Shown here one piece after another: positions 356 to 53,751 of a stretch of 64,000 nt of DNA (the first letter of the stretch is position 1; each line of letters opens with the position of its first letter). Source of the stretch: Utricularia gibba (lineage: Eukaryota; Streptophyta; Magnoliopsida; Lamiales; Lentibulariaceae); assembly GCA_002189035.1 (NCBI GenBank), contig NEEC01000007.1, positions 682,001 through 746,000 of the forward strand, in the 5' to 3' direction. The notes below the pieces were generated by a model. That model did not search any database. It was not told where the DNA came from and was given only the letters and a program-made list of their open reading frames with translations. The position numbers and the translations under genes are program-made.

Positions 356-1820
356 ATGTCTCTGTCCGTTGGAGGTGTTTCTGGCTCTGAAACCATGGGG
401 TATGACGACAAAAAGGAGGAAGAGATGAATCCGGGTTCGGAGGGGAACAAATCTGGGCCTGGGTTGCAGAATCCTGATCCGGAAATTGCGCCCGAAACTG
501 GAGGTGGGGTTAGCCGGCAAATGAGTGAAAATTCTTTGTATACGACAGACGATGAAGATGATGAGGAGACTGAATCGAGGATTCAGTTGGGCCCTCAGTG
601 TACTCTAAAGGAATTGTCTGAAAAGGACAAGGTTTGTTCGTATGCTTGTTGTGTTTTATCTCTCTTAACATTTCCGCCTCTTTTCCTGCTTGATTTCGGT
701 TTCCATTGAGGTTTCAGGACGATGAGAGCTTGAGGAGATGGAAGGAACAACTTCTTGGCACTGTGGATATGGAATCTGTTGGAGGTTGTTAGTTTTTTTA
801 TTTTTCTGTATCTTGAGTTCCTTGCTCATTGTTAAAGTTTTTCAAAATGTATTGACAGAGCTTGGCATGGTTTACTAGTTGCAAAACTAGATTGCTACAC
901 CAAGAGTTACCATTGAGGTTTAAAACATCAGTTTGATAACAAAACGCGTGTAGCAAATTCTTTATTTTTCATCGCTAGAACCAATCCAAGGAAGTCTGTG
1001 GACAAGTTAGGGGTTTAAGCTGGCACATAATTGTGTTGCTACATTGATCCCTTCCATTGAGTTGATTGATGATTGCTTCATTTGGCCAACTGATACTTCA
1101 ATGTGCTCTGATTTCTAGAGATTTGTAACCAAATCCTTATTTCTTCTGTTTTGAAGAAACACTTGACCCTGAAGTGAAGATCCTGAGCCTTGCCATCAAA
1201 TCTCCCGGTAGGCAAGACATTGTTCTTCCGATTCCTGAAACTGGAAACCCGAAAGGTACATGGTTCGTGTTGAAAGAGGGGAGCCATTATAGTCTTCAGT
1301 TTACATTTAGAGTCAGCAACAACATTGTATCCGGCCTCAAGTATAAGAACACTGTTTGGAAAACCAGCATCAAAGGTTCGTTTCCCATCTCCACTTTCAT
1401 AGTTCAGAGTCTGAGAAGCAGATGTTGAATCCATATCTTATCTCACCTTTGTTTCAGTGGATCACAACAAAGAGATGATTGGAACCTTCAGTCCTCAGTC
1501 TGAACCTTACACACATGAAATGCCAGAGGAGACCACTCCTTCTGGCTTATTCGCCCGGGATCTTATTCAGCAAGAACACTGGTAATTCATTTTCACCTGA
1601 TATGAAGCATGTACTAGCTGAATATGAGCAGAAAATGTCCACAAATTGATTACTTATGAACTCTGTTCTCCTTGGTTTAACCTCCACATGATATATTTCT
1701 GGGGAAAGAGCAGTGACATGATGATGCTTATGCTGTGTGCAGTTTGTTGATGATGATGACAGATGCTACTTGGAACTCAACTACACATTTGACATCAAGA
1801 AGGAATGGCAGACAATATGA
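356..1820 (+). CDS. Rho GDP-dissociation inhibitor (RhoGDI), frame broken by one base
   Basis: RhoGDIs extract prenylated ROP/Rac GTPases from membranes and hold them GDP-bound in the cytosol. Exons read from the sequence are 356-631, 718-784, 1157-1375, 1458-1581 and 1743-1820. The N-terminus is acidic (DDEDDEETESR). It is followed by the family blocks LSEKDKDDESLRRWKEQLLG, LDPEVKILSLAI, GSHYSLQFTFRVSNNIVSGL, VDHNKEMIGTFSP, then SGLFAR, GSYSAR, and a C-terminal end YTFDIKKEWQTI. The splice phases agree throughout. In exon 4, however, GLFAR and GSYSAR are in different frames: the run at 1557-1559 has three G where the family needs four. As written, the frame runs into DLIQQEHW and a stop in the intron, or if spliced, to a shifted tail ending at 1917. 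The start at 356 is the first ATG giving a plausible acidic N-terminus; 191 is not an ATG. Identity is secure; the break is probably a sequence error. Confidence 0.9.
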
Positions 1821-1920
1821 TCCAATGTTTCTAGAAGAATGTAGCTTCTGTTGTGCTGAACATCAACATGCTTCATCTTTAGACTATGTTTTACGGTGCT
1901 TTTGTGATAACTTTTAGACT

Positions 1921-2360
1921 GAAGAGAATTTGATCCCTTTTGCTTTGTTGGGCTTTTTAAACGGGCCGATAGGTTGTTACTTAATTGGGCTTCGTAAAGA
2001 AAATATACTAATTGAAAGGGCCCCGCCCCGTTACTTTGTTGGGCCGTTTCGGACGGAACTCACGACTCACGCCTATCAATTCTAACGGTCCGATACATTG
2101 AGCGCCGGCGATGATTTACAGTCGACGGAATAGCAGCATCCTGTGATCAGGGTTCCTTATTCTCGCGGCGGCTGGTTTTTGTCTGGGCGACGGGAAACAG
2201 GTTCTTGTTCAACTTCTGCTCTGCGTTTTCGGAAATCAGGGAGAATAGCAGCTGGAAATAGGGAGATTGTTGTTACATATTAGGTCTAGTTTTGAAGCAT
2301 AAGGAAAGGCGTTGGTGTATGGTTAAGGAATTCATTCATACGTAAATACGCGTTCTTCTA
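1921..2360. promoter_or_regulatory. GART upstream region with three site II motifs
   Basis: This 440-base gap holds the RhoGDI 3' end and the promoter and leader of the formyltransferase gene. Three site II-type elements lie within 100 bases: TGGGCT at 1949-1954 and 1986-1991, and TGGGCC at 2040-2045. Such motifs are known in plants upstream of genes active in dividing cells, which fits a purine-synthesis enzyme. The link to this promoter is inferred from position only. Confidence 0.4.
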
Positions 2361-3913
2361 ATGGAAGCGCAACGTTTAAGTTTCGGTAGCCACTTAGCTG
2401 GAGGTTTTTCTGCAGTTCAATCGCAAAAAAGACATGTGGTGGCAGTATTATCTCCTCCGCTTTCTCCCAGTTTTCAAACACGTAAGTGGGCCTCCATCAG
2501 GAGTTGTAGTTCTGTTCGACCAGAAACTCTACCAGACAAAGGGGATTCGGAGTTTAGAAGCAATGTCTTCACTCGAGGGAGTTTAAGCTCAGAGAAGAAT
2601 GATAAGCGAGCTGTTATTAGAAGGAAGAATTTGGCTGTGTTTGTGTCTGGAGGAGGCTCCAATTTTAAGTCCATTTATGAAGCAACGCTCAATGGGTGTG
2701 TACATGGTGATGTTGTTGTCCTGGTTACCAACAAAAAAGGTTGGCTTTTGAATTCATGCCTTCTCCATTTTCATTCATTTGCCTTCATGCCATAATTGAG
2801 GCATGCTCTCTATGCTCTGCTTGAATTTTCGAAGTAGCTATTTTTCTTATGGTATCGATTTGGATTTCAAATTGCTGAAAGTTCAATTCTTTTTCACATC
2901 GTGTGATGCTTGCAGATTGTGGTGGTGCAGAGTATGCACGTCAACATGGTATCCCTATTATACTCTTTCCTATAAAGAATGAGACTTATTCTGCTGATGA
3001 CCTTGTAATGGCGCTGAGGTTAGAAGTCTCTGAATGCTGTTTACATTGTCTTGTTGATTCTGAAATCCAGACGCTTGAACAGCTTTTTTGTTATCTCTGA
3101 AGCTTACTCTTATTCACAATGAGATGATGAAGATGGCTTTTTTTTTGTGAAGCATTGTTTCTTGCAATTCTTGTGCCTTCTAGAAATTAAAACGAAATTC
3201 TCGCATATATGCTTTAAAAGCTCGTTCTCTGTCTTAATAACAGTGATGTTTTCTACTACATACCACCATGTGGCATTATCTTTCATCTGTTTTTACATTC
3301 TGATCATCAGATCATTCAATGTTGACTTCATTCTTCTAGCGGGGTATCTGAAGATTGTTCCCACCGAGGTGATCAAGGCATACCCTAATTCCATTGTCAA
3401 TATTCATCCTTCCCTTCTTCCAGCCTTCGGCGGAAAAGGTTATTACGGCATGAATGTTCACAGAGCCGTCATCGCATCTGGAGCCAGGTGAATGACTCCA
3501 TCCACTTCTCCTTGTCGGGTGACATCTCAAAGCATGGATTGTTTCTAGCTCAACTTATCCTGTCACCAGAAGATCCTCACGTATTGTGTAGGTACTCTGG
3601 GGTGACGATTCACTACGTCGATGAGGAATACGACACAGGACGTATCATCGCCCAAAGGGTCGTTCCTGTGCTTGCCACAGACACAGCTGAGGAGCTAGCT
3701 GCCAGAGTTCTTCATGAGGTACGTCTAACTCTTCCTTGATCAGCCTCGCTCATTGCACCTTTCTGAAAAGGCCGTTTGACCTCAACTTTGAATCTTCAGG
3801 AACACAAGCTCTATGTTGAGGTATCAGCAGCGTTATGTGACGAAAGAATCGTCTGGCGAGACGATGGTGTGCCATTCATACAAAGCATAGGAAATCCTGA
3901 CCAGCTTCTGTAG
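2361..3913 (+). CDS. PUR3: Phosphoribosylglycinamide formyltransferase (GAR transformylase), plastid type
   Basis: This enzyme transfers a formyl group from 10-formyl-THF to glycinamide ribonucleotide, the third step of de novo purine synthesis, which in plants occurs in plastids. Exons are 2361-2739, 2916-3018, 3311-3487, 3592-3718 and 3800-3913, and all phases are consistent. Residues 1 to about 85 are Ser/Arg-rich and suit a transit peptide. The catalytic domain opens with LAVFVSGGGSNFKSI, the phosphate-binding loop. It continues with LLAGYLKIVP, then NIHPSLLPAFGGKGYYG, which carries the active-site Asn and His, and then VTIHYVDEEYDTG, which carries the active-site Asp. It ends in FIQSIGNPDQLL. 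The length fits plant PUR3 and no break was seen. Confidence is high. Confidence 0.95.
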
Positions 3914-4545
3914 TATAACATGTTGGAATCCTTCGCAAACTCGGCCAATTCATTTTTCTCCGTGACTTGCTTTTGTAGTTCCAACTCTTTCCCATTCAGC
4001 TTCCTATGATATTCAGCCACTTTTTTGTCCAAGTTATGACTTGAACCTATACTCTCCCACCCTTCTTGGAGCTTTCTTCCCCACCCCTGCATATCTTTCT
4101 TCTGCTTCACAATAATGTGCATCAACTCTCGGAAATGGTAAAGAAAATCAGGAATACAAAAGAAAAGCTACACCAACGCCATCAAGGCAAGATGTTTGAT
4201 CTCCAAATGGATCTACACATATTTAGAAATGAAGGACAGATTTTCCTTACACTCAACTTCCCAGAAATTCCTTTCCAATTCTATGCCCTGCTTATTCATC
4301 GCCGCGAATTCTGCATCAACTTCTTTTTTTCTGACAACGAAAACCTCAACAGCATAGCACTTCGCACACATCGAAGTGCGACCGACGAGCAAATGCAAGA
4401 TCGTGGGCAATGCGTACCTTAAGAGAACTCTCGAAGTCGACTGGGCAATGGCAAGTTGACTTGGACGGACCATCACGACGACTCTGGACGCAAAAAGGAA
4501 AGGCAAATTAGGGTTGATAAGATTATACCCCATTATCCAACACAT
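3914..4545 (-). pseudogene. Degenerate coiled-coil-like reading frame, unrecognised
   Basis: Two minus-strand open stretches (4545 to about 4213 and about 4125 to 3925) read like one charged helical protein. The first contains MVRPSQLAIAQSTSRVLL and KKEVDAEFAAMNKQGIELER. The second contains HRKLNGKELELQKQVTEKNE. An in-frame stop lies between them near 4158, and the second part runs antisense into the GART terminal exon. I do not recognise a family. It could be a relic exon of a coiled-coil gene, a gene with an unseen intron, or chance. Confidence is low. Confidence 0.2.
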
Positions 4546-5524
4546 TTAGGGGCGACTGTCCTCACGCGCCCTAACATAAACAAAAATGAAGTTTAGACAT
4601 AATAGAAATAAATATTAATGTTTACATATATTTAGAAAAAAAGCAAATATAATTAATACATATTATATAATGAAAAATATACCAAAAAAAATCATATTCC
4701 ATACCTAACACCAATGTTTAAAAATGAATTATTATATCGTTTTAAACGACAAATTATTCATGATAATGATTGAATTAAATTCGAATAAAAATCTGTAAAT
4801 AATTATTTTTAACATTTAAATCACGCTTTAAAACTTAAAAAAAGTTATAGTGAAATGGACCAATCGCCTTTCTTCGAACGGGAGACTTACTATTCGTTCA
4901 CGCATTTGATTATAAAATACAAGAAAAATCACGGTCCATCTACTGAGTCCTGCTCATTTTGCAGTGTTTTTCACCTGAAAGCTCCTTCTGTTCCAAGAAT
5001 TTTTCCCGGTGTTCCATGATTTTGAATTTTCCTGGGTATTTTATGTGGTAACAAATTCCGAGCCACAAGCTTGATTTGGCTGTTGTCGGAGCTGAATTGA
5101 CTTGGGTAAAAGATTTGGAGGATTGAGGCGTAGATCGAAGGTGGGTTTTTACCTTTGTTAGTTCGTGGTTTGAGGCTTCTGGGTTTTGATATTGTAGCTT
5201 GTTCTTGGAGGAAATATGGTTTATATTGGTTGCAAAATTTTAGAATTTGGTCAACTCTTGTGTGATTAGCGGCTCAATTTGGTTTCTTGTTTTCTGGTTT
5301 TGGGTATTATGTAAAGTTTTCCGTTTCACTGAAACGTTGATGGAACCATCTGCTTGAAATTTTACCGTTATGCATTTGTTTGAAGCAACTACCTTTATCC
5401 CTGTTTTTGTGGCATAAAAAGCGAAGAACATGCATTGTTTGTAACCAAGTTTGTTTATTCTGTATTAGGTTATTTTTGAATTTTAGGTTATGTGGGTTGC
5501 TTTTCTACACTAGATTGATGAAGT
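4546..5524. other. AT-rich spacer and probable 5' leader of the PHL7-like gene
   Basis: Bases 4560-4890 are AT-rich with no coding signal. From about 4900 the composition becomes more mixed and resembles a transcribed leader. A GAAG/GTGGGT donor-like site near 5140 and a pyrimidine-poor stretch before 5525 suggest a 5' UTR intron, but I cannot fix its ends. Confidence 0.3.
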
Positions 5525-8208: not shown

Positions 8209-10242
8209 ATGAACTCAAGTGCTCCGTCGTCCAGTGCTGGGCCTTGGATCTGCCGATGCTCCTGTATCCCGCAGGAATTCGAAGCGACCCAAGTGTAAAT
8301 TTCTTCCGTTCTCTGCTGACTAGTGGAATCTTTGCTGTCAGAAACGTTCATTTTTTAATCGATCTATGTTTTTTAGTACGGATGATATCATCTAGTATTC
8401 AATTTGAGAATTATTACCCTGTAACTTCTTGTATTCTGTAGCTTTACATTTTAGAAATTTTCTGCAATCCGTAGTTCTGAATAGGTAGCGTTTTTTATTT
8501 CTTGATTTGATCGTAGGAGCATAAAAGAAGCTGATGCGTTCGTTTGCTTCTTGAACTTGATCACTTTTGAGACTTTTTTTCTCCTATTTTGTTTTTTCCA
8601 TTCACCCTCAGATTCAAGGTTTACGCAACAAGAACTGCCGGCATGCAAGCCTATTCTTACTCCTAAATGGGTGAGTGTTTTAATTTATGAACATCATAGC
8701 CCCGGCTCCAGATTGGGATTGCTTGGTTTGACTTTGTTATCGATGCAGATTATATCAACATTCTTGCTTGTTAGCGTCGTGTTCATTCCAGTTGGAGTCG
8801 TTGCACTCTTTGCTTCTCGAGATGTATGTTTTGGTGAATGATATGCAGATATATATACTTTTTATTTTTTAGTTGGCTTATTTTTAATCCCTGTGTCATG
8901 TAGATTGTTGAAATTGTTGACCGTTACGATGCGGAATGCATTCCTAGACATTTTAGAAATGACACACTGGCTTATATCCAAGGCCCTGAAGACAAAACCT
9001 GCAATAGGACTCTTAGGGTGAGCTGCTTTTTCATGGCATGTTATTACTGTTCGTATGCTGGACTGGGGATGTTTTTGTTTATTACCATGTCTGTCAATAA
9101 ATTCTGATTGATTTGTGTGACAGAATTACTTTGTGAGTTTCAGGTGACAAAACATATGAGGCATCCAATTTTTGTTTATTACCAGCTTGACGGTTTCTAT
9201 CAAAATCATCGCAGGTAGCCAAGTGCAAGCTTCTGCTTTATGTCACTGCATTGATTCTTACCCATTTTCACTTTCTCTGTGACATAATGCATCACGAGAT
9301 GTACATTGCTTTGGATTGCTTGATACTTTTAGATACGTAAGAAGCCGAAGTGATCAGCAGCTAAGAAATCCAGCAAGTCAAGCTACCACAGGACCCTGTA
9401 GTCCGGAGGGCACCACACCAGATGGGAATCCAATTGTTCCTTGTGGACTTATAGCATGGAGCCTTTTTAATGATACTTACAAATTAACTCATGGGAACCA
9501 GCAAGAATTGGCCATACACAAAAAAGGAATCTCATGGAAGAGTGATAGGGATCATAAATTTGGAAGAAATGTCTTTCCGCGTAACTTTCAGAATGGTACT
9601 TTAGTGGGTGGCGGAAGACTTGATCCGTCAATTCCCGTACGCATCCATTCCTCTATAGCTTTTCCAATTGCATGCGGTGTCTTGAGTGCATCCTTTCATG
9701 CCTGATTTTGTTTTGAATGATTTAGGAATGGAATGTTTCACCTAGAGTACATGGACTCGAATTCTTTTTTATAATATGCTTCTTTGACAGTTGAGTGAAC
9801 AAGAGGACCTCATAGTCTGGATGCGAACAGCTGCACTTCCTACATTCAGGAAGTTGTATGGCCGCATAGAGACCGACCTGCAAGCAGGGGATGTCATTCA
9901 TGTTACATTACAGAACAGGTATAACACTTACAGTTTCAATGGGAAGAAGAGACTTGTTCTTTCCACTGCTAGCTGGCTTGGAGGAAAAAATGATTTTGTG
10001 GGCATCGCATATCTTACTGTGGGTGGCTTGTGCTTTTTCTTGGCGATGGTTTTCTCACTCATTTATCTGATTAAACCAAGGTAGCAACCCCCCTCTAGCT
10101 TACATGTTCCCCATTTTTCTGTTAAAGCATTTGCGATTTAATGTAATATATCCCGACGCTATTTGGTCTTCTTCTCTGCACTCTCAGGCAACTTGGAGAT
10201 CCGTCTTATCTTTCCTGGAATCGGAACCCGGGTGGACGTTGA
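8209..10242 (+). CDS. ALIS: ALA-interacting subunit (CDC50/LEM3 family), frame broken in exon 1
   Basis: ALIS proteins are obligate beta-subunits of P4-ATPase phospholipid flippases, needed for their ER exit and activity. Exons are 8209-8294, 8612-8670, 8749-8823, 8904-9017, 9144-9214, 9333-9636, 9791-10080 and 10188-10242. The protein has the family entry [18 protein letters not shown], a first membrane span (about [20 protein letters not shown]), and a large glycosylatable lumenal loop with [29 protein letters not shown] and [15 protein letters not shown] second span follows ([20 protein letters not shown]), ending in [16 protein letters not shown]. The start [12 protein letters not shown] is typical, but the next family residues [16 protein letters not shown] lie one frame over. 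One extra base at about 8244-8245 (TT where the family needs T) explains this, and removing it restores the phase to exon 2. As written, translation stops near 8298. Confidence 0.92.
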
Positions 10243-13456: not shown

Positions 13457-14968
13457 TCACGCCCATCTGGCTAGAATCGACATGCACCCCGCCCCCAGCA
13501 GAAGAGAAGTATAGGCACCCAACTGAAGTCTCACGCTGTTCTGCATCCTTGGGTTCATGAAATCGGCGGCGAGAAGATCGACGAGGGCCATGTAGATCAA
13601 AATTCCGGCGGAAGCCGAATTGAAAACCCCCTCCACGATCAACGCTCTCCGGCTGCTCTCCGTGTAGAAGCTCGATATTCCGATCCCTACTCCCACACCA
13701 ACCGGAGTCGTCAGTGAGAAGAACATCATCATGATCGCATTCGTCCACGATTCAAACTTCGCCTGCGACAAAATTAAAAAAAAAATAACAAACCAATATA
13801 TTCAAGACTCCAATTTTATTACCCAAGATATATTTTAAAAAAAAAAACGAAAATTCACACTTAACTTAAATGAAAATTAATAATGAAGATGACTAATTTT
13901 CATAACTGATCGGGTGTCCGTACAATCATTTTGTAAACCGGAACCACCGGATCAGGGATTCGGTTCGCTCCAAAAACCGGGTGAAAAATGCGAACCGGCT
14001 ATTTATGGAAATTGAGAAAGGTGAAATGGAATGACGACATGATGTGCAAAAGATGGAGATGATGACGACATGATCCCACCCGAGGCTACTTTTTGGGCCA
14101 GCCAGGCTTTCCACTCCGATACGCTAATGCGGATGGAAAAAGGGAAGGGACACGGGGACACGCACCTGAGAAATGCAGGCTCCCAGTCCCATGCCTTCGA
14201 AGAACTGGTGAAAGGAAAGCGCTGCTAGCAGCGGCTTGATCCTCTCCACGCTCTGCGACGCTCCGAGGGACACTCCGATGATCACCGAGTGCACCACGAT
14301 CCCGACCTCCATGACCTGCGTTCATGGCTGAGAATGAGATGCTTTTTTTTTGTTTGATTGATGATGAGAGGGAGCAGGTACTTTAGATATTATCCGTTGC
14401 CGGGCGAGGTCGAAGGATGGAGCAGCGCCGTGGGCATGGCCATGGGTGGCATGAGTGTGCACATGAACGTGTCCGTCATCATCGCCGTCGCCGTCGTCTA
14501 CGCCTTCCGGATCAATTACATTAACTTGCTTCTTGACGTGGACGTGGTTCCTCCGGAAGAATCCAGAGGCTGCAGTGTCGGCCGTGAGAGTCGCGACAGC
14601 CGCCATCATCGCGACGAACCCTGCGACCGGGAAATCCGCCCAGAGAGTGCCGTGGAGGCAGGGAGAGGTCAGACTGGAGAAGGCATCCGGTAAGATATGG
14701 ATAAACCCCGTGGCGAGGATCACCCCCGCGGCGAAAGCTTTGATCATGAAGAAAACGTCGTTTTCGGGGCGGAGGGAGTGGATTTTCCGGCCGAGAAAGG
14801 GCAGGCCGACACCAATCCCCCCGCAGCGAGGATCGCGGCGATTGAGATGAGTTTGTACATGAGAGCGTCGCGGTTGTGCCGGTGGCGGGGCTCCTCCCCG
14901 TCGCAGGTGCAGAGTCCGGAAACCGCCGCCGGGATTAGGGCAAGCGTGAGAATCGAGGAACTCATCAT
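13457..14968 (-). CDS. ZIP family zinc/iron transporter, frame broken in exon 1
   Basis: ZIP proteins move Zn2+, Fe2+ or other divalent metals into the cytosol. Exons, on the minus strand, are 14968-14382, 14315-14166 and 13762-13457; restored length is 347 residues. The sequence opens with a signal-like segment [17 protein letters not shown] and CTCDGEE. Membrane spans follow ([36 protein letters not shown]). A His-rich cytoplasmic loop about residues 165-180 holds alternating [15 protein letters not shown]. The conserved metal path is [12 protein letters not shown] with [12 protein letters not shown]. The C-terminal spans end in [21 protein letters not shown] and [13 protein letters not shown] are in different frames: the C6 run at 14817-14822 is one short of what the family and the 588-base exon phase require. 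As written, the protein would end shortly after residue 70. Which metal it carries cannot be told. Confidence 0.92.
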
Positions 14969-15690: not shown

Positions 15691-18077
15691 TCAGACCTTG
15701 TGTTCTGGTCGGTGAGTGAACTCGAAGTCGATATGGACGAAAGCTCGTTCCACTTCCTGTATTTGTTCCAGCTTTATTTGCAGGGTCTCGCCGATGTTAT
15801 GGGCTTGGCTCAGCGGCATGTCTTCTGGTAGAACAATATCAACCTCGACGAAGTACTGCATGCCAAAGGTGTAAGCTCTCACTGTGTCGATGTGCTGGAT
15901 CTCTTTGTGATGGTTCCATACTAGATAAGTTAGTTTTGCTAGGAAATCCGGTGGGGCAGTCCTTCCGATGAGCGACCAGACATTTTCGAACACGGTCTTG
16001 GTCCATGTGTTGATGGTGTACAATGCTATCTGGATCAAAACAAAAAAAAAAAAAAAAAAAAAGCATCTCAGAGAAGTGTCTCAGACTCATGGATATGGGA
16101 GGTTTTATGTAAAACTAGACGACTCTGTTGCAAGAGGAGATGGATGGCTTACAAGTATGGCGCCAGTAGGATCAATCCACCAGGCGTACCTGACTGCTAG
16201 CACAGCAGTTACTAGGCCGACTGAGTTGGTTACCACATCAAAGAAGTGATCTTGTGCATATGCTCGGACGATTTCGTTGGTGAATCTGCGGCAATATAGC
16301 ATAAGTAGGAACTTCACCACTGTCACAGATACCATTATCCCTATCATCCACATCTCCTTTGTATGGTCCAATTCACGGCTAGGCTGATGGGGCATACGAC
16401 AGTCAAGAGGTTCCATTAAGACAAAGAGGCAACTAGAAGCAATGTAAAGTGTATTTTCACGGTTGATTTGGAGGTTTGAGATTAGTGGCATACCTTTGAC
16501 ATTAGCTGCCTACCAGATTCAAGTATGATTTGCAATCCCAGAGTGGCCATTACTGATGCAAACACAATAATCCCTTGATCAAGCGAAGAACAAAAGTCAG
16601 CATCGAATTTTTGAATCAAGATGCAATTATCATTGTGTTTGTGATCAAGGCACACGGAAGGACAAGAATACACAATATTATGCATTACCACTGGTTGCAT
16701 CCGCCTCTTCCCAATTGGATAGTGGTACTGATTTGGCTTCTTCATGGCATATGCCGTGAACCAGAGGATCAGACCAGACAAGAGGTCTAGCAAGGAATCC
16801 AAAGTCGATGCAATAACAGCCATTGACTTGCTCTCCACTGAAGCATAAACTTTTGCCGTAAAAAGTAGCAAATTAAAAGCATTCGACACATGAATTGCCA
16901 TCCTCTCACTCTTCGCAAGCTGTTTCATTTCATCCTGAAACAAATGAAAGAAGAAAACAGTAACAGAGATCAAAAGGAGTCACGACACGAATTATATCTA
17001 AGGACCCTCATGCTGAAAAGCAGGACATGGTGAAAAAACAACGAAAAGCCAACCTCTGTAAGAGCGTCTGGTAAGAATCCGGTTTCGTGCATACTCTCCA
17101 TTTCATTAAAGCCATCTAGGAGCCTCTGCTGCCTCTTGTAATATTCAGCAATGTTTCGTTGTTTTCCTGCGACATGGAGAGTATGAAATACAATTGAAGG
17201 AAAGAGGGGAAAGAAAAAATAAACGGAAACCATGAGACAGGGAGGAATCCAGACATGAACCGAAGATTTCCAAAATCACACCAAACTAAACAAAGTGATC
17301 AAAAGCCTAAAGATGTACCAAGAAAGTTTTTTGCAAACCAGCTGCTCATCTTGACGGAAGAGGCATACAGAATTTCCATTTTTTTTTTCTGAAATGACTT
17401 CTAAACTTGTGAAAATATGCTTCAAACGCTTCAGAATCAAAAGTTCCCTGTTGCTTTTGAAAATTCTGTGCCAAAATTATGCCTTTTCAGAGATTCTAGC
17501 ACCAATCGTGGTACCCATCCACTTTACTACTACACGTTAGGCTGAAGACCATATTCAGAGTTGCATCTACTCAAAAAGCTTCAAATCAAATCAATGACGT
17601 TTCGAGGGCCATATCCTTAAACAAAATTAAAGGAATCCCCCACAACGATACAATTCGATTGAGAATGAATCAAAAGCTACTCATAACACAGAATCATCCC
17701 TGAAACCACAAATTAAGCAAACATCATAGAAATGCATCCGCATCAGATTCCCAACAGAACAATAACTTGGCACATTACCACAATACCTTAACGTAGCATG
17801 ACCAAAAAAGTCAGAACAAAGAATCCGACACGGGATGAATCACTCAAAAAAAAAGGAAATAAATACAAATCCGAAAAAGCCAACAATTGTACGAAACTAC
17901 ACACTCACTTCTCTTCCCCATAATCCTCCGAAAATCGAAGGAGCGGTTGTGAGAATCAGATCTGCGCTCCGGCAACCTGAACTTATCGATGTCCAACCTC
18001 CAGGAAGACGATTCGCCTTCATTCTCCGGCCCCAGAAGCTCCCTGCAACTCTCTCCGGCTATTCTCCCGATCTCCAT
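15691..18077 (-). CDS. MTP10: Cation diffusion facilitator, MTP9/MTP10-type (Mn-CDF)
   Basis: MTP8-11 group proteins export Mn2+ and related metals from the cytosol into vacuole, Golgi or prevacuolar compartments. Exons, on the minus strand, are 18077-17909, 17166-17054, 16934-16689, 16573-16494, 16383-16153 and 16029-15691. Visible landmarks are [30 protein letters not shown], and [20 protein letters not shown] with the Mn-CDF DSLLD motif. [37 protein letters not shown], and [20 protein letters not shown] with the second DxxxD follow. The cytosolic end is [17 protein letters not shown]. The family expects MQPVGIIVFAS across the exon 3/4 junction, but exon 4 is 80 bases where 81 fits; the C3 run at 16572-16574 may be one short. 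A GTGGTA donor giving MQPGIIV is an alternative. The intron before the last exon ends, on the coding strand, in a T21 tract (16042-16062). Confidence 0.93.
16042..16062. repeat. A21 run (T21 on the coding strand) in the last MTP intron
   Basis: On the MTP coding strand this is an uninterrupted T21, ending 12 bases before the exon 6 acceptor, so it serves as the polypyrimidine tract. Confidence 0.8.
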
Positions 18078-32034: not shown

Positions 32035-32040
32035 ATGCGA

Positions 32041-35093: not shown

Positions 35094-37348
35094 TCAGAGT
35101 GACGGTACGGACAAACAAGGCTTAATAATTTAGCCAAGGGGGGAGGAAGGTACATGAGGGTACCTAATAAATACAATTTTACACATTTACCCACTCGTAA
35201 CCGTTAAAATAAAGAAAATCTGTAAAAAAAAAAAACTATTTTAATATTACTTTTTTACCAAAAAATTATGCAATTTTCCCCAAATTAAATCTTGGATTAA
35301 TGAAATTAATTGTGTAAGGTTTAATTATTATTAATATTATTATGAAATTTTGAAGTCGTGGCAGTAGTTGTGGAGTTGAAAAACATGCCCAAGTAAACTT
35401 GACTGGCGACTGGTGTCGTTTTTTTCTCTAACTAATCTCCCCAAACTTGGAAATTCACTAAACCAATTTTTAAAAAAATTAAAATATCTTAAATAAATAT
35501 TAATTACTTGTACGGTATTCATTTAATGAGAAAGTGAAAAAAAAATTTCCTGGTAATAGTGAGTCAGCGGTCACGGTCCCCTTGTTCCCCATGCATAAAT
35601 GGTAATTAAAGATGTCTTTTATATTTGGAGAGTCCAATTAATAAGGTAATTGGCATGTTTCAATTCTAAGGTGTAGCATGTGATCCATCCAAATAAATGA
35701 ATTAAAACTATGTACTATGAGGCTCCTTTCAATATCAACTCACCTAAACACTTACTACATTCGATGCGATATATTAATAAAGAGCTTCGAAATGGTATGT
35801 TGTGAAAAAAGATATGTCAAAAAATATATGATATACTTTGGAGCAAGGGACGACTGTATAAGCACACCAACATATTTATGATGAATATAAATCTGCAATA
35901 GGAGGAGCAACGGCCATTGAAAGATGGTATTGAATGGTAGGGTATAGTGTCACGACACCGTGTCCGGTGGATGGTGGGTACGGGTGAGGACACGGGCACC
36001 ACCACGGCATTATGATGAATATGATAAAAGGGTAGGTTCGTTTATTTCTTTTGTTTCCATGTCTGAAAAATACAAAATACCAAACGCATACTAAGAATAA
36101 AATTCGAATGGCATTCATTGATTTAGATCAACTTGTGTTTTCTTACATGGTTTAATAAAGTTCTTCTCTAAAACAACAACATGAGAATGGAAAGAATGAT
36201 TCGAATAAGTTAAAGAAATGAAACACAAGGGCCTGGAACATGTCCCCCCTAATCATTCTCATTGCCTATCAAGTCCAAATAGGAACCACGAGGCTCGGAT
36301 TTTGGTACGGTTTTTCCATTCCAGACCCCCACCCGTGTCCAACAACGAGCACCGGACCGAGCCAATGAGCCTTGTCGTTTGGTTCGGGGCGACACGACAA
36401 ATCCCGTTAGTCTGGTTGGGTGGGCAACTGCAATCAAATCATCATGCAGGATTCAGACAAGGCAGGTGGGCCATTGGGCCCTGCCGTGTATGGGCTTCTG
36501 ACCCAATGAAGAGAACAGGCCCATCGTCTCTTTTTTAGTGTTGGAAATGCCTGGAATCAGACTTGTCAGCACACTTCACTGGGGGCAATGGATTCCCTGA
36601 CGAGATCCCATTTGTCCGCCGGCTTTGTTCTCAGCAGATGCTCATCAATCCAGTTGTAAGAACATCATGCATAAGCTGTCAATGTTCTTCCTCATTAAAT
36701 ATTAAAAACCACATCTTGACCCAGCCAGGTACATTCCTGAACTACGTGTTTTGGGTATCCCACTGTCTAGAAAGAAGATGCTTTTTTACTGTTCCATTCA
36801 TTTTTTATTCCAAATGCAGATCATCTTCAGAAAGTCGTTGGGATTTTTTATTTTAATTCGCTCATACTCTGCATCTAACTCAAGAACTACTAGAATAAAA
36901 AATTCTATATCGAAATTTGAAAATGAAATAAAAAATTATATAAAAAATTATAAATCAATAGTAATTTATTTATTATATACTTGAAATAATGATAGAGATA
37001 TAAATCTGTGTGTTGATTGTACTTGTTCCCCTGGAAGATGTTTTTGGCCCCAAGGAACAACCCATCACTTCACTTTATTGTATTACAAGATGCAGACGAC
37101 GAAGATCACATTTCGGACCCTGAACAAAGCTGCTGATACAACCCTTTGATTCTCTCACAAACTACGTGTACATCACTTCTCACCAACACAAATCTTAATA
37201 CTTTGGATTTGATTCCCCTTCTCGCTTGGGGAATGAAATATTTAAAAAGGGAATATTTTGCAACCTATAAGTAGCGAGCAACCTCGAGCAATCTTCTTGA
37301 GCTACGAGAACAAACCTTTCCAGCATCTTTCATCGTTTTTTCCCAAAA
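35094..37348. other. Gene-poor AT-rich spacer
   Basis: No gene was recognised. A slightly GC-richer portion at 36220-36530 has short open frames without a family. Bases 37040-37348 are the probable promoter and leader of the CCT-motif gene. Confidence 0.35.
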
Positions 37349-38547
37349 ATGGACGTCCCAATGCCCCTCCACTTTCTCTCCAACAACATCGGCCTCTCCG
37401 GCGGGGTTCTCCGTCGTCCAACTCCGGTGGGGGTGGAAGAAATATCACCCCACATGTACAACAATTTCCATGGTTCAGGAACGTGGTACTCCCCGATCTC
37501 CTACGATGACGCATACTCATCTCCATCGGATCCCACATTCTCCTCCGAACATGTTGTGTTCCCGAAATATGTGGAAAACGAGTCCCGGTGTCGTGATTTT
37601 GACAAACAGTACAGCAATCTGGGGCTTGAGCCTGGAGAAGCAGAGTGGAATAGTTTGTTAGTCCCAAACCCTTGGCCTGATTACTGTCCTACGGCAGCTG
37701 AGTACTGATTTTCATCCATTTTTTTTCTCTCCCAAGACACCATAATTCATGTAGTTCATGGTTTGGCGCATCATCTCTGGAGCTTTTATATGAGATTACG
37801 GCTTGCTTTCAGGCTGGAAACAACACAGCACTGAAAATCGACGATTCGGAGACGAAAGTCCGACGATACTCCGCCGCAGAGCGCAAGGATAAAATCCTCC
37901 GATACTTGCAGAAGAGAAACCAGAGAAATTTCAATAAGACCATCAAGGTACACCTACGTCTACTTAGACATAAAATCTCACCACCAAGTGTGTTTTCTTC
38001 ACAAATTCAATTTCTTATTTTTCATTTTCAAAAATAAAAATTAATGATTTTATAAAACATAAAGTATTTATATTTCTATATAAATATATACAATTTTTTC
38101 TATTTTTATAAATGTATATAACTTATTTCTGAAAATAATTAATTTACTTTTTATTTTTCATTCTCGTTTTTCAAAAACTTATTTCCAGAATATATTCCTA
38201 TTGCACATATACTCCATCAAACAAAAATTTGTGTTTCAAATCATTAGATTTAACTCCGGTTGTTGCAGTACGCATGCCGGAAAACCCTAGCAGACAAACG
38301 TGTCCGAATCCGAGGAAGGTTCGCGAAAAACCAAGATGACAATCCGGACGACATGGATCCCCTCTCTCAGGTTCGGCGTTCATGTCTTGATTTCTTCCAC
38401 CGACCACTCGTGCACTGATATGCGACGGTCGTCTCGTCGACGTGATGCATGCGCTATTTGCAGATGCGAGATGGCGAAGACGAGGATGATGGGTTGCTCC
38501 AAGCCGCCATTGCCAATTTTGTGCACTTCCCTTACACCACCACCTGA
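37349..38547 (+). CDS. CCT-motif family protein
   Basis: CCT-motif proteins are nuclear regulators related to CONSTANS-like and PRR proteins, often linked to flowering or photoperiod. Exons read are 37349-37702, 37813-37947, 38269-38370 and 38464-38547. Exon 1 encodes MDVPMPLHFLSNNIGLSGGV and a Ser/Tyr-rich middle. Exons 2-3 carry the CCT motif: ERKDKILRYLQKRNQRNFNK, TIKYACRKTLADKRVRIRGR and FAKNQD. Exon 4 ends GLLQAAIANFVHFPYTTT. Exon 2 needs a phase-0 donor after GCTGAG at 37702, but the sequence there is GAG/TACTG, lacking the G that would make GAG/GTACTG. As written, the frame stops at TAC TGA and the CCT motif is lost. One missing G is the simplest explanation; intron retention or another donor is possible. 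Confidence 0.85.
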
Positions 38548-41445
38548 TAAGCTTTCTTTTTGTCCGAGAATTAAAACCCTAAAAAAACCCGTTTTCGTTT
38601 CGAATCGCTCCGATTTTGTTCCAAAATTGGTGTTCTTGTGGACAATAACAGATCATGTCTTATTTTTGGAATAAGATGTGTTGAAATTAAGGACTAAGTA
38701 GGTGGAATGAACATATATATGAAGTTCAAGTATACAATAAATTTACATTACATTAAAAAAAATTAGATTCAATCAATTACTCATGATTTATAATTTTTCA
38801 CATACGTGATTATTTCAATTTCAAATATCAATATGATATTATTTGACGTAATAAGATGATGAATCCAAAAAATAAAAGAGAAATTGAAAAAAATTTATAC
38901 ATTAAAATTAATTTTATTATCAAATATAAAAGGTTTTGATGTAAAAAATACAATATATTTAAGAAGCTTCAGACATCTATATTTCAATTTATCCAAAATA
39001 ATTCTCGAAAATAATTTTATAAAACTTGAATCAAGCGCAATATTAATAAACCATCTAAAAAATGAGCTTACCAAAACCCAATAAAAATGAAATTGGGCCT
39101 ATAAAATCACCAGAAAAACCCAATAATCAGCCCAAAACATGCAAAAGCAGCCCAATAAAATTACAATACAAATAATTTAAATATTAAAATCCGATACAAA
39201 GGAATCTATGTAACAAATATATTTCCATTTTATTTTAAACTATATAATTTCAATTTTAATAAGCTATGAAACGATTTGAGCCCCCGTCTTCAGTAATGGA
39301 ATCCTAAAATTGACTTCATTAAAAAGGTAGCATGAGGTGACGCATTTAATCAAATTTAGGAAAATAAATATACTCTATACTTTTTTCCATATAATAACTT
39401 TAAAAAGGGGAGAAAAAAAAGAAAAAGAAGGAATCATCTTTTAATCCGAGACAATGGACGGAACAGGATACCGTGGCCGTACAGAGAGTATGGTTCCCAT
39501 CACTTTTTATTATTTATTTCCGGAGAAAAGCTACTACTCCTAGGCAAATAAAATATACCCAATAATTTCATTATTATTTACCCATGGGGTGCGGAGTGAC
39601 GTCGTTTTGACAGGTATGTTGGTGCATGGGGCCCACCTCCACTCCCCCCACCCCCCAGCGCAATGAAAACGACACCGCATCGCCTGTTTTTACTTTTTGC
39701 TGCCTTCCGCACCACCACCTGCTCCCTAAAGGAAAAGGTAAAAAACATTAATTAATTAATTAGTTATTCGATGTCACCCGTCAATTAAATTAACCACCCG
39801 GTTTAGAAAACAACCCGAGCCGAACAGTTTTCCGGTTTGCCGGTCCAGGTCTAGATGCTATTGTGTATACATTATATTTAAATTAGGGTTCTTATGAATT
39901 ATATGATCACACGTGAATCTCAATTACATAATAAACGTAAATCATATTTACAAAAATCAGATCTAACTAATTTTATTTGTGGAGGCTATGTTGAGTGATG
40001 ACTTTAGAGGGAAAAAAATGAAATGTGAAAGCCAAGAAAAGTGGAAACACCCAACAAGTCACGTTGCTTCATTTTTTCCCTTTAATTCAATAAAGAAAAA
40101 GCTTTTGATTGAGTATTCAAAAATTTATTAATCATGACGATAACTTGTTCTTTTTCTTTATTCCACTTTTGGTCCCCCAAATTCAGAGTAATTGCAAATC
40201 TTGATCCCCCTTGGTCAACGCACATTCCGAAGACGCCGTAATTTTGAAATAGTAAAGAGTCGCGCCGACAAATTTTACCGCCTGTACACGTCATCATTTT
40301 GGGGGGTACGTAAAATACAAAATTCACTTTCTTTTTTTTTTTTTTTTACTTTCAGGACACGAAGGAAGTGCTGGAGTAGTAAATGTGTCCCAAAGGAGAC
40401 AATAATTCAACAACTACTGCAGCATCAACATTGAATTCCTTTTTGGTATTTATTTTTGTTCGGAAATATGTTAATCACAGTAGGGCCCACTACCGTGACA
40501 TGAAAAAAACACACACACAAACCACAATGGGTGTATCATTTTCTCGAATATTTAAATATTTAAAAAGATTTTCTGAATCCAAATGATAAATTACTCCGTA
40601 ATAAAAAATAAGGAAATTGTCCTATATTTGATGCAATAACATATAGTATGATTTAATGTGCATAAGGTATATTATGAAGAACATGTGTATGAAATAATCG
40701 TGATTCTCGATACATATGTATTTGATGACATAAGCATACCTATTATATAAGATATTGTTAGTTTACCCTTGCAATTACGTTATAATAATAAAATTGAAAA
40801 GGGTTTAATATGGGTTAAGATTCGGTGGGGATGAATGGGTCAAATTTAATCCCTTATTATTTTTATTTTTTAAAAAATAATAAATATCTGGGCTTCGGTT
40901 GGTTCAGACTTCAGAGTTCACACGCTAAGTCTATGGCTAATGAGCCTAATTAGGGGAATAATCAACCGGTGGAATAGGTTAGGATTTAGGGTGCGGATGA
41001 CCGGCTCGTGAAGTTGAAGAGGGAAAATTCACCGGCGTTTCGGGTAACTGTATCTCTTTGAATGGGAATAAATAAATATAAATAATAAGTTTGTCTGTGG
41101 CGACGTGGATATATTCATCTATCTCCATTTCAATGCGTCGCAACGAGCATGTTTTCGCCACCTTCTTTCTCACACCATCCTTCACTGCGAGAACCGAACC
41201 TGATCGGATCACAGAGTTGAGCGTACAAAAACACGCCATTCACGCTTTCTTTCTTGCATTTTTTGTTTGATTTGACCGGTCGGAGAATATCTGTTTTTGA
41301 TAATGGCGTTTGAAGGTCGCTGCGTCGGTCAATTTCCGCCGCTGCTGCTCGGAAATAGGTAGAGTTGGTGATTTTTTTTTGTGGCGGTTTGTTATTGAGT
41401 TGTTGGGTGTTGGATTCATTTTTGCGGTTTTGTTGCAGAGATTTA
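38548..41445. other. Gene-poor AT-rich spacer and BOI promoter
   Basis: Mostly AT-rich without coding signal. Several GCCCAATA/AGCCCA-type motifs cluster at 39075-39160. Bases 40979-41239 carry a minus-strand frame of 86 codons (MACFCTLNSVIRSGS...) with no recognised family. Bases 41250-41445 look like the BOI-gene leader, with a possible leader intron ending in TTGCAG at about 41438. Confidence 0.35.
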
Positions 41446-42374
41446 ATGGCGATGAACTATTTCGGAGATGGGTGTGGGGTGCAAATGGGGAACGGTGTAT
41501 TCGATCCGGTTTCAGGGACGTCGACGGCGACGGAAATGGGGGTCCCGTTGTGTGGCCGAGCCGTTTGTGATAGCTACGGGATGGGGGGTTTGAACGTGAA
41601 ATCAAACAGTTGTCTAACGTGCGCTGTTCCTGCTCTGAGGAAGCGTTCTAGGGTGGAGACGGTGGATCCGTCATTGGAAAGCGGCGGAGTGAGCAATGGC
41701 TCCCGCGGCGGAGTATTTTCACTTCTCGACAATGATTTCTCGGCTGCGATGCAGCAACAGCAGTTAGAGATCGATCGGTATATCGCCCTTCATGTAAGTT
41801 TTTTCTTAATGAACCGCCGAATCCGATTCCTGAATCTGACTGATTGACGGCTCTATCGGCTTTCATCGCAGACGGAGAAAGTGCGAGCTGAAGTTGAGTC
41901 ACACCGGAGGAAATTCTCACGGCGGATATCGCCGGCGGTAGAGGATAACATACTCAAGAAACTGAGAGCCAAAGACGAAGAAATCGAAAAGATCGGAAAA
42001 CTGAACTGGGCTTTAGAAGAAAGAGTGAAATCTCTGTCAGTTGAGAACCAAATTTGGAAGGATTTAGCTCAAACAAACGAAGCCACCGCCAACACCCTCC
42101 GCTGCAATCTGCAACAAGTTCTCTCTCAGGTTCAATACCCTGCTGCCGACGAGGAATCCAGCTGCAGCAGCTCCACCCCCGAGGCCCCCGTCCCCGCCCC
42201 GTATCGGATGCCAAACGCCTCTGTAGAAGTTGCCGTATAGAAGAATCCTCCGTACTCCTCCTCCCCTGCCGCCATCTCTGCCTGTGTACCTCCTGCGTTT
42301 CCTCTCTCCGTCACTGCCCCGTCTGCAACTCCGTCAAAACCGGCACCCTCCAAGTCAATCTCTCCGCGTTGTAG
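41446..42374 (+). CDS. BOI: BOI-type RING E3 ubiquitin ligase, frame broken before the RING
   Basis: BOI and BRG proteins are RING ligases that ubiquitinate regulators of stress, cell death and gibberellin signalling. Exons are 41446-41793 and 41872-42374. Exon 1 starts MAMNYFGDGCGVQMGNG and includes RKRSRVE and QQQLEIDRYIALH. Exon 2 has the conserved coiled coil TEKVRAEVESHRRKFSRRI, then LRAKDEEIEKIGKLNWALEE and NEATANTLRCNLQQVL. The RING follows, CRSCRIEESSVLLLPCRHLC then CTSCVSSLRHCPVC, a C3HC4-type set, ending GTLQVNLSAL. The coiled coil and RING are in different frames. The C4 run at 42197-42200 needs one more C to read APVSDAKRLCRSC, and exon 2 then becomes 168 whole codons. As written, translation stops at 42240 without the RING. 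Confidence 0.92.
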
Positions 42375-43216
42375 AAAAAAAATTGCAACAAATGGAAATA
42401 AAATATAATTAGGTACCTAATCCGTATGTCGCATTACCGTTTTGTCCCCCTTGATGAACATTACTTCAATGATTTTTGTCCATATAAGGCATGCTTATCT
42501 AAAATTAAATAATTTAACCATATATTATTAATTAAATTATCATAACTTAATATGCTGTTATACAGACAAGTTGGAAATGGGCGATGACGGTTTAAATTGA
42601 TGGTGGGAACAAACTGTGTAGTTGATTCATGGAAGTCGTACTTTAGGGCATGAATCGAGAGCGACACGTCGAGTGTAAATCCGACACGTCGGACGCGCGC
42701 GCGCAAATGTCGCTGTTGGAGGACGCCGACGTGTTCACACACAGAAGGAAGGAAGCAAGGGCGGGAGAGGCGTTACTTTTGTGGTGTACTGCAACTGTCC
42801 AAAGCTGCACCGCAGAGAAACATACAACATGGGGCCCACGTCTAAAATAATTATGTTTAATAATATTGGAGAGTTAGACCGGACCGGAGCGCCTTTTACG
42901 TGGGGCGCACGACGCGCTCCGTTTTCTTAATCTGAACCGACTCCCTCCCTCCCCGTCCCCGCCACGTGATAGAAAAAACGACCGATAATGTTTTAATGAT
43001 CCAGTGCGAGGCGTGCACGACACCAGCGGTGGGGTGGATTGATGGAGCGGGAATTCCACCATGAGGTAAATGGGGGATTATCAGCACGTGACGGATTGGG
43101 CGCACTCACATCAGCGGCTCCATCGCGTGGTCAATTATTGAATTTTCAGTCAAATTTGGGGAATAAATTCAATTCCATGGAAAATAATGCACAATTATCA
43201 CTTAAAATGAATTAAT

Positions 43217-45879: not shown

Positions 45880-46006
45880 GCAAAACCTCGTCCGTACAAT
45901 GGAACAAGAAAGATGAAACAAAACACAGCTGAACTCCGACTTCATGAAAGAAAAGAAGAAATGCAAGACGGCATCTTACTTCACCAAAGCCACATTCCCA
46001 TGTTGC

Positions 46007-46327: not shown

Positions 46328-46412
46328 GCTCGCTAAGAAACTTTTACTCCCAGAGCTTCTTCTTCAAAGCAGCGTCAGGATTCGTATTGCGATTTGGCTT
46401 TAAATCCCTGCG

Positions 46413-46533: not shown

Positions 46534-46696
46534 GTAGTAACGGGTCCGTGTTGGCTGGCCTATCAGACTTCGGAAGTTGAACGAATCATGCCTTTCTTTA
46601 ACTTGCTCTCTTGCAGGCAGCTTCATGTTCGTAGACTGAAGTTTTGTTCTGCTTCGTGTTCCAGAAAGTGTTCATTTTTGCCAAGAAACAAAGAAC

Positions 46697-49457: not shown

Positions 49458-49592
49458 TCTCGAACATGATTTGGATTTGGAATCCCGTGCAAAATGCTAA
49501 TGACAAGTATTGGGAGTCCATCCAGTTACACTTTTTTGAGGAAGATGAGGTTCTTTTGCTTTCAGGTATCTATATAATCATGAACTTGCCCA

Positions 49593-51419
49593 TCAGAATA
49601 TAGGGGAATCAAACAGAAAGGGCATGCCCTTTTGCTGCAGCCTCTCACAATCTTCTTGGCTTGCTTTGGGATCGGTCGGATCAAAAAAACTGCCATCATC
49701 ATCAATCGCTAGGCCTTGCTTGAGACGTCCCAGTTTCCTTGAAAATTCGACCTGCTTCGACACCACTGGGAGACGAGTACGCTGATATTCTTCAAGTGCT
49801 GAGCTTAGATCATCAGCACCCCATTTCTCAAGGCATTTCCCCAGAACAGCAGCATCCAAAATTGACATGTTTGTACTTCTCAAACCATGGGGAGTAGTTG
49901 GGTGGGCTGCATCACCAACCAAAGCAACCTTGTCCCACACGATCTGGCTGAGAGGCTCCATGTCATATATAACATTCAAGAATGGATCCTTGGTTTCTCG
50001 TATAACTTTCACCAGCTCAGGAACCCAAAACTTGTCTGCTGCTTGGTGCATTTCTGAGATCAAATCAGAGCTCACTTTCATTGTCACGGAAGTTCCCTGG
50101 TAAAAAACGAGGATCGATGTGTCCGAATGCCACAGTTTTCATTTGTAGAAAGCTAGCAAACTGGAGAAATGAGAGGAAAAAGCATACCTGAAGCTGCGGT
50201 TCTAGTTGGTTTATATACCAAATCCAGTTGATCCTCTTGTTAAGCAACTCATAAAAGACCGAGTGCGTCTGTGTTGCCAAGTCAAAATATAAGCACTTTC
50301 CAAGATCGGGGTAAACTTTCTTTAGTTCCACAAAGATTTCCTCGTTGTCTGAAAAATCAAAGACCCCTCTCCAGGCACAGTATCCAGAATACCTAAACAA
50401 CAGATGTGCATTTTATTCTAAGTGCACATAACTGAGTGGAAGCAGAAATGTCACACTTATCTCACAAACCTTAGTTTAAGGTCGGGGTAAAAGCACCGTC
50501 GAATCGAAGAGAGGCAACCATCAGCTGCAATAAGCAAATCGCCAGCAACTTCATAAACACAGCCAGTCTGCAGTGTTTTTGCCTTCACTCTAACACAAGA
50601 TTTGTCATCAGAGACGCAAAAGGATAGGAATACATTCCCCCACTGAACAGTCTCCGTGGGCAGTGCGGTATACAAAAGTCTGTGCAGATCAGACCAATAT
50701 GCTGCTTTGAAATTGAAATTTTCATCCCTTGTGAGAATCCTGACCCTCTTCTTCTCTGCATCAGTGGCTCCGTTCTGTAGGTCCAAAAAAACACGAAACA
50801 TGACTAAAGAATCATACTAATCGTCAATAACCTTCAACAAACCGTTTACTTTAGCAGCTTAATTAGAAGGGGGCATCAAAGAATCATATTGCTCCTCAAA
50901 TAACCTTCAGAAAGTGGACTTCTTTAGCAGTTAAACAGAGAACCAAAGAATCATACTAAGCCTCAAGCAACCTCCAACGAACAGGATACTTCTCGTATAA
51001 GAGAGGATAACAAGAAATCACATTACTTCAACAGATCAATTCTTTTCGCAGTTGGACAAAAGGGACTAGCAGAAACAGACCCTCAAATGACGCTGTTTCT
51101 TTATCAGGAGGGAATCAAAGAATCATGTTCAATTTCGACAAGATGATTTCTTTAATTGTGTGAGGCAGGGTACCTGATCGATGGTTAGTGGCAAAGTACA
51201 CAGCTCAAGGTCCCGTGATTGTTTCAGCCACGACGGTATAATCTTCTGAGCAAGAGGGTCGAGTCCGAGTCCTGCACCTGTGGCGCAGCTGTTGGAAGGG
51301 AAAGCTGTTTTTTCTAAAACCACCACTTCCCAGCCCGCAGCGAGGAGTGCATGGGCGCAGGAAAAACCAGCTATGCTGCCGCCGACGACCACCGCTTTCC
51401 CCGTACGCGCTGCTCCCAT
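49593..51419 (-). CDS. FAD-dependent monooxygenase, 2,6-dihydroxypyridine hydroxylase-like
   Basis: Exons, on the minus strand, are 51419-51174, 50774-50470, 50392-50188 and 50096-49593 (419 residues, phases consistent). Next to the start is the dinucleotide-binding motif KAVVVGGSIAGFSCAHALL (GxGxxG-type, with GGSIAG), then VVVLEKTAFP. The middle has YWSDLHRLLYTALP and the DG motif DLLIAADGCLSSIRRCF. The second FAD motif VALVGDAAHPTTPHG contains GDAAHP. The C-terminus ALEEYQRTRLPVVSKQVEFS is typical of this class A flavin hydroxylase group. The in planta substrate is unknown to me; the bacterial relatives hydroxylate N-heteroaromatics. There is no clear organelle signal. It is divergent from the response regulator, with 533 bases between start codons. 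Confidence 0.88.
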
Positions 51420-51952
51420 CACACCCACAAGCTGCCGCCAGAGCCACACCCCAATTGAATCAACGGGTACAACGAGACATATATAACAAAGTTACTGATA
51501 CTCTTCGATTTCAAGCTTCAACCAAAGCAGCAACTTGCAGTAACCCCCGGTAAGAAACTAGTCCAAATCAAACAAGCACAAGATCAATCTCCAACCAGCA
51601 TGATTAATCCCACCCTCAGCTTTGTCAATATCAAAGTAGAGATTGTCAATATTTTTTAATTACGAAATTTGTTTCTTAATTTTTTTTTATTGTCAATCAC
51701 CTTCCCCCAACATATAAGCTACTATTCCGGGAAAGGTGACAATCATGCATCCCCTGTAGTTCAATGCCCTTTGAAATTTGGCAGTATCTTTGAAGGCATG
51801 GCACCAAAATCTCATCAGATCTTGCTTTTTGCCTTCTGAAATTCCCATTTCAAACCCCACCAACTCTTCCTCCTCCCTCCTCCTCCTCCCTCCTCCCTCC
51901 CTCTACTTCCTCTTCTTCTCAAACCATCAACGCACCGGCGAACTGTGAAAAA
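51420..51952. promoter_or_regulatory. Divergent promoter region with CT-rich leader tract
   Basis: This is the gap between the monooxygenase ATG (minus) and the response-regulator ATG (plus). A nearly pure pyrimidine tract of TCC/CTT units covers 51863-51920, ending about 30 bases before the ARR start; such Y-rich stretches are common at plant leaders. An AGATCT core near 51816 would suit type-B ARR binding, but one short site proves little. Confidence 0.4.
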
Positions 51953-53751
51953 ATGGCGAATTCAGAATCGCAATTTCACATCCTGGCCGTTGATGACAGT
52001 TTGATCGACAGAAAGCTCATCGAATGCCTCCTAAAAACATGCTCCTTCAAAGGTAACTCAATCGTTTATTTTTTTACCTCAATTTGTCGACGCTCTCCCA
52101 CAGAATTCTTCCGTCTCTCCAACAGTAACCGCCGTTGATTCCGGTAGCAAAGCCTTGGAGTTCCTGGGGTGGAATCAAGATCAAGCCGAGACCTCCTCCC
52201 CCCAAAATTCTCATGTAATAAAATCACCATTTTTCTAATTTTCCTATTCCCAACGCGGTAAATATTATTTACTTACTTTCTTACTGTGTGTGGGGTCCAG
52301 GTGGATGTCAATCTCGTAATTACAGACTACTGCATGCCAGGGATGTCTGGGTACGATCTACTCAAGAAACTGAAGGTACCGCAACTTGCTCCCAAATTAA
52401 CCCTTTAATTTATTCCTTTTCCCCTTTTTTTTCTAATTTAATAATAATTTTTTCCTAGGTTAGCTTAGGTTTTCATCTATTTTTTTTAATTTTTTTCGCA
52501 TTTGAAAGGAATTAATAAGAATAAAAGAGGATAATTTACTCGTATATTTGTGGGGTATATTTTAGGAAAATGTAATAATAATAATTATTATTATTATTTA
52601 TTATTAATATAATAAATGGGAAAAATAATAGATATTGTAAGATTTGACGTATCTAGCGAGGATTGTATGTGAAGATATGGGGGCCCGCCTGTCGCACTTT
52701 GACATGAATGAGAATCAAGGCCAGATCTTGGGTGGGGCATTTTGGTACTTTTAATTTTAAATAAAACTATAATATTCTTGTTTAAATTTATATATTTTAT
52801 TTAAAATAGTCATTTAAATTTGAAATGTATTTGATAATGTATATTTTAATTTGACATAAACACATTTATAGAAAATTTAAATTTATCCAAAATTAATTTT
52901 TTACTTATTATTAAATATTCTTATTAAATAAAATGCTCTTCAAAAGCAATTCTAAATCATCAAATATCGCCTAATAAATTTACATTTAATAACATATAGT
53001 AATTTTTATTTAATGAGAAGTGATGCATAATGTTATAAATTAATAATTAAGATAATTTATTAATTATATTTTTTTAATTTTTATTGAAGCACTAATTTAT
53101 ATCTCTATGAATTTAGATAATACTATGATACAAAAGACAATATTATTTGTTTTCAATTATTGACATTTTTTTATAATATTTTATATATTACGAAAAAACC
53201 CATTCATGTTTTTTATTTAACTAATTTTTGTGCAAATGAAAAATGATTACCAAACTAATCCTAATCACTTTCCGTTGGTAAAAAAGGTAATTTTCAATTG
53301 TTACCGCCGGTAACTTTTCTCCTCCACGCTGTTCTGACTGCCAGGAGTCGTCATGCTTGCGGGATATACCAGTGGTGGTTATGTCTTCCGAGAATGCCCC
53401 TCAAGAATCACCAGGTTTTTTTCTTTTTTTTTTTATAAAAAAATATTTTAAAATATACAGAAATTCAAGAATCACGGTGGCAGATGCTTGGAGGAGGGCG
53501 CCAAGGAATTTTTACTGAAGCCGGTCAGATTAACGGACGTTAAAAAACTGATGCATCACATCGTCAAATCAAAGCGCAAGGAATCGGAGAAGTCTCGAGA
53601 TAGTCAAGAACCCGGCCTGCTACCGGTTCACCCGGATGCCTTGGAAGACCTGAGGTCCAATTTTATCAACAAGAAGAAGAGGAAGAGTTCTTCCGATGAA
53701 CCGGATCGAGTCACCCGGGCGCGACTCGATGGCCTGACCGTTCACTCGTAG
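51953..53751 (+). CDS. ARR9: Type-A response regulator (ARR8/ARR9-like), frame broken in exon 4
   Basis: Type-A ARRs are cytokinin-induced receiver proteins that damp cytokinin signalling. Exons are 51953-52052, 52126-52214, 52301-52375, 53345-53414 and 53484-53751; restored length is 200 residues. The receiver has [20 protein letters not shown] with the acidic pair DD, then [35 protein letters not shown] contains the phospho-acceptor Asp of [15 protein letters not shown] has the conserved Ser, and [20 protein letters not shown] the conserved Lys. A short basic C-terminus lacks a DNA-binding domain, as in type A. Exon 4 needs SSENAPSRITR followed by CLEEG. The C4 at 53397-53400 gives only [10 protein letters not shown], out of phase with exon 5. 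One more C restores both sequence and phase. Intron 3 is long (969 bases) and AT-rich. Confidence 0.92.

Follow-up and report, generated by a model that had tools for sequence, protein, structure and literature searches.

Several otherwise conserved genes of Utricularia gibba are interrupted in the genome assembly by frame breaks that are almost certainly residual long-read consensus errors. In this explanation, consensus calling would drop a single base from runs of G or C, with a probability that climbs steeply with run length, and genes that the plant itself carries intact would thereby look frameshifted in the assembly. We favoured it because the same G/C losses recurred across unrelated gene families and rose with run length, because redundant contigs disagreed with each other and because constraint at third codon positions continued past the breaks. 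What the assembly shows directly is that the breaks exist, favour G/C, depend on run length and are spread over the whole genome, and that redundant contigs disagree with each other. The preliminary description of this DNA had preferred residual long-read consensus error as the better explanation, and the genome-wide rate, the run-length trend and the disagreement between contigs C316 and C412 support it.

Frame breaks in the window

The window, that is, the whole stretch of 64,000 nucleotides that was analysed, corresponds to positions 682001-746000 of contig C213 (G000:C213:682001-746000) in a plant assembly of 100.09 Mb and 516 contigs. Genes were located via their open frames and each was read in three frames together with its splice sites and phases, the reading covering the window outside the end of a CBP80-like gene (20.6-23 kb). 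In addition, a Pfam profile search was performed on the window translations with stops treated as residues. Seven breaks were listed, the last two as likely ones:

1557..1559, + strand: RhoGDI (gene 356-1820), exon 4; GGG, one G short, frame and splice phase broken beyond
8239..8247, + strand: ALIS/CDC50-type gene (8209-10236), exon 1; +1 frame slip in GGGCCTTGG
14817..14822, - strand: ZIP metal transporter (13461-14968), exon 1; G run of six bases, one short
42176..42200, + strand: BOI-type RING gene (41447-42375), exon 2; one C short among the C runs (5,5,4,4)
53397..53400, + strand: type-A ARR (51953-53751), exon 4; CCCC, one C short
16688..16689, - strand: MTP/cation diffusion facilitator (15700-17300); likely break, GG at the splice donor, intron phase requires one G more
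37702..37702, + strand: CCT-domain gene (37340-38000); likely break, G at the splice donor, phase fits with one extra G

The first five genes had previously been described as carrying a frame jump each, and all five breaks are present in the sequence as written, as the three-frame reading, the profiles and the paralogs confirmed. Both RhoGDI paralogs from the same genome (C4:1014 kb and C413:3080 kb) showed GGGG at the break position, and the Pfam Rho_GDI profile carried on in the next frame past the break with the correct splice phase. The ZIP protein started in one frame while the Pfam Zip match (16-232) lay in the next, beginning only past the break. In BOI, the frame switched among the four C runs, ahead of the RING domain, whose frame differs from that of the gene start, and this region was open in three paralogs. 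The ARR ohnolog, a syntenic copy at C244:2482 kb, presented one base more at the break point and an open frame.

Three more genes had been considered probably broken; we found two further likely cases. The MTP paralogs on C142 and C375 encoded the residues QPVGII uninterrupted within one exon, and a further frame break at the MTP splice donor is likely. In the weaker case, the CCT-domain gene, exon 2 requires phase 0 at its start and the sole nearby donor gives phase 2, so that a break at the donor is likely. The jumps had also been described as one base long and mostly one G or C too few. This applied to six of the seven breaks, in which one G or C was missing, while ALIS had the opposite sign (+1). 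Its start codon (ATG, 8209) belongs to frame 2 and the remainder of exon 1 to frame 3; the paralog at C413:1752 kb was open, yet it differed by 8 bp around the break. The +1 shift may reflect either a single surplus base or two missing ones, the double loss being suggested by a GRAS gene at C244:1855 kb in which an apparent one-base gain was actually a loss of two.

About nine window genes were read through intact (GART, MYB-CC/PHL, an RlmI-like methyltransferase, NHL, SAUR, RecA, an FAD monooxygenase, the gene at 29.5-30.5 kb and the RLK exons read), in agreement with the eight unbroken genes described earlier. The RlmI-like methyltransferase had been a candidate for a break at one splice donor; it was rejected, since an alternative donor preserves the frame, and the gene was counted as intact.

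With regard to other copies of this region, the BOI-to-ARR part of the window (40.9-53.8 kb) is retained as an ohnologous syntenic block at C244:2468144-2482542. A second copy of the first 20 kb of the window was sought in the assembly and diverged paralogs only were found. Positions 38670-38865 of the window hold a dispersed repeat of about 180 bases with at least 30 genomic matches at roughly 72-82% identity.

Loss of single bases from G/C runs across the genome

A GRAS profile search was performed over the whole assembly, involving many contigs, and the breakpoints were then read. GRAS genes are mostly intronless, so that a frame break in them appears as a pair of neighbouring profile matches whose frames differ. 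We found 13 one-base deletions in 36 GRAS genes (41.0 kb of coding sequence), 12 of them in G/C and, as a counter-observation, one in an A run. The HSP70 family presented six additional one-base deletions, all in G/C. The Cpn60/TCP1 family was searched too, its exons being too short for break scoring. Inspection showed that two GRAS candidates, one at C4:1155 kb and the other at C1:1229 kb, were introns; they went uncounted, as did a third candidate at C375:103-105 kb, likewise an intron.

Gene families unrelated to each other thus presented one-base G/C deletions genome-wide at a rate of about 0.3 per kb, and the breaks were spread over the genome without regard to gene identity (7 in 15.5 kb in the window, 13 in 41 kb in GRAS, 6 in HSP70). 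At the genome-wide GRAS rate, 4.9 breaks would be expected in the window against the seven observed (P = 0.22), with its coding sequence estimated at about 15.5 kb across 17 genes from approximate exon sums. The break density of the window is therefore unexceptional within its own genome.

Taking the window, GRAS and HSP70 sites together, 24 of the 25 clear deletions affected G or C, while G/C accounted for 49% of the runs of two or more bases (P about 5e-7). We then related loss to the true length of each run, deduced from the reading frame by adding one base to the observed length wherever a break occurred, for the GRAS genes other than a multiply damaged one on C414. A base was lost in 2 of about 3198 G/C runs of length 2 (about 0.06%), 1 of 580 of length 3, 1 of 160 of length 4, 3 of 32 of length 5 (9%), 1 of 4 of length 6 and 5 of 5 of length 7, numbers being small at lengths 6 and 7. 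The GRAS coding sequence retained no G/C run of seven bases or longer. A/T runs in GRAS lost a base once among 38 of length 5 and never among 8 of length 6. The earlier description of homopolymer length changes therefore holds as regards one-base losses, but not for all homopolymers: the deletion process is specific to G/C rather than general to homopolymers, and it extends to runs of just two bases.

Constraint beyond the breaks

Differences from paralogs past the breaks were found mostly at third codon positions. At first, second and third positions, the differences numbered 6/3/32 in the final long exon of ALIS, 31/28/71 in one GRAS pair and 4/2/14 in the ARR tail. Judged from these patterns of substitution, the broken genes look functional on either side of the break. 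The hallmarks of a pseudogene, relaxed constraint and more stops past the break, were absent in the clear cases.

These data bear on the proposal that the broken genes are pseudogenes being lost following whole-genome duplication. For several of them, this genome does contain paralogs that are intact. However, each broken window gene other than ALIS carried a single one-base fault with otherwise normal splice sites, and no further stops were seen in the clear broken window genes in the three-frame reading. Moreover, the rate was similar across unrelated families and the breaks tracked G/C run length, not gene type. We consider it exceedingly unlikely that gene loss accounts for them.

Alternatively, the frame changes could be real and bypassed through ribosomal or transcriptional slippage or through unannotated introns. 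Slippage sites are typically homopolymers, and two of the GRAS candidates did turn out to be introns. Nevertheless, the sites shared no common motif beyond any G/C run, varied in position among paralogs and were absent from intact ones, and the gaps at the breaks measured 0-30 bases, below intron size. A bypass of this kind is next to inconceivable.

Disagreement between redundant contigs

The assembly is also inconsistent with itself. Contig C316 (38 kb) is almost identical in sequence to C412:822-860 kb. Natural variation is characterised by indels far rarer than substitutions. Across two clean blocks of 29.2 kb, C316 and C412 differed by 23 substitutions, 35 one-base indels and 7 longer indels. 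Twenty of the one-base indels were G/C and 15 were A/T, and part of the differences between the two contigs may be truly allelic. At C316:32581, a C3 versus C4 difference left a GRAS reading frame of 615 aa open in one contig and cut to 412 aa in the other.

In C316, nine of the 35 one-base indels fell within the terminal 1.4 kb, and the most damaged GRAS gene, with several losses, is likewise close to a contig end (C414, at a distance of 1.3 kb). These two examples are compatible with an excess of errors at contig ends, which low coverage would be expected to produce and mutation would not.

Contigs C241 and C304, compared as another pair, showed mainly substitutions and few indels, a result that is neutral. 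Positions 10001-20000 of C241, a contig of 31 kb, hold a sequence almost identical to that at C304:2234000-2244000, either an allele or a recent duplicate. An HSP70 break was present at the identical G run in both contigs; if it is an error, an error can recur in two copies, or else this break is real.

Real mutation as an unlikely alternative, and the COX1 motif

Another explanation is that the breaks are real and recent frameshift mutations in a deletion-biased genome driven by ROS, marked by the COX1 CC motif, in which oxidised G runs lose bases. True indel rates likewise climb with run length, and the run-length trend would be compatible with such mutations. COX1 on contig C515 reads LLLLCCSALVEV and this genome does bear the CC motif. 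The adjoining cysteine pair at this COX1 site is found in all Utricularia and in one section of Genlisea, and deletion-biased repair in the Utricularia lineage has been published as a hypothesis (PMC11688529). Real mutation would nevertheless demand about one recent null per 3 kb in otherwise intact genes, the conserved HSP70 genes included, while constraint continues past the breaks. It also leaves unexplained why indels outnumber substitutions between C316 and C412 and why they are densest at the contig end. Altogether, we regard real mutation as very unlikely. It is extremely improbable, too, that a real Utricularia process of guanine oxidation with deletion-biased repair strips single bases from G/C runs, leaving many genes recently broken or rescued by slippage.

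As a separate observation, the mitochondrial COX1 gene is split at C515:183547-185854 by a sequence that runs into a LAGLIDADG-like endonuclease frame and is apparently a group I intron.

Origin of the assembly and consequences

The published U. gibba assembly was obtained with HGAP at 88x and has a contig N50 of 3.4 Mb (PMC5793159). The COX1 CC motif of the present assembly agrees with that source. From this we infer the platform and polishing history: the present assembly probably consists of PacBio CLR data assembled with HGAP, polished with Quiver and otherwise uncorrected. The sizes of five contigs are exact multiples of 2,500 bases (C1, 8,500,000; C2, 6,192,500; C505, 3,452,500; C409, 2,492,500; C507, 642,500), as though consensus calling had proceeded in windows of fixed size and the final piece had been discarded.

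If the rate of about 0.3 losses per kb of coding sequence is extrapolated, some third of all typical genes would seem frameshifted. Counts of pseudogenes, gene losses and family sizes taken from the U. gibba assembly would then be biased toward what the deletion-bias hypothesis predicts. The U. gibba genome serves as a model of genome reduction and of a proposed mutational bias toward deletions. For gene and pseudogene counts in it, the breaks constitute a strong warning. Most errors of this type would be removed by short-read polishing.

Comparison with known systems

Comparable errors have been described in bacterial PacBio CLR assemblies for which Quiver was the sole polishing step. In Streptomyces albus SM254, HGAP3/Quiver left 205 indels, 'nearly all' of them in G or C homopolymers (PMC4832174); as here, the one-base indels were overwhelmingly located in G or C runs. 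Enterococcus faecium ATCC 700221, with a chromosome of 2.9 Mb, presented 561 single-base homopolymer deletions (PMC4888979), which resemble the present breaks both in type and in density, at about 0.2 per kb. In contrast to these two cases, in which Illumina reads proved the errors, the present one stands on internal evidence. Gene fragmentation by long-read indel errors in draft assemblies is a topic of PMC12007338 and PMC8812927. These two papers deal, as we do, with homopolymer length errors that create apparent pseudogenes, but in small or bacterial genomes, whereas our case is a plant with a bias toward G/C loss. The consensus-error phenomenon is itself ordinary; what is added by U. gibba is a genome-wide, G/C-specific and run-length-graded form of it that is visible within the assembly.
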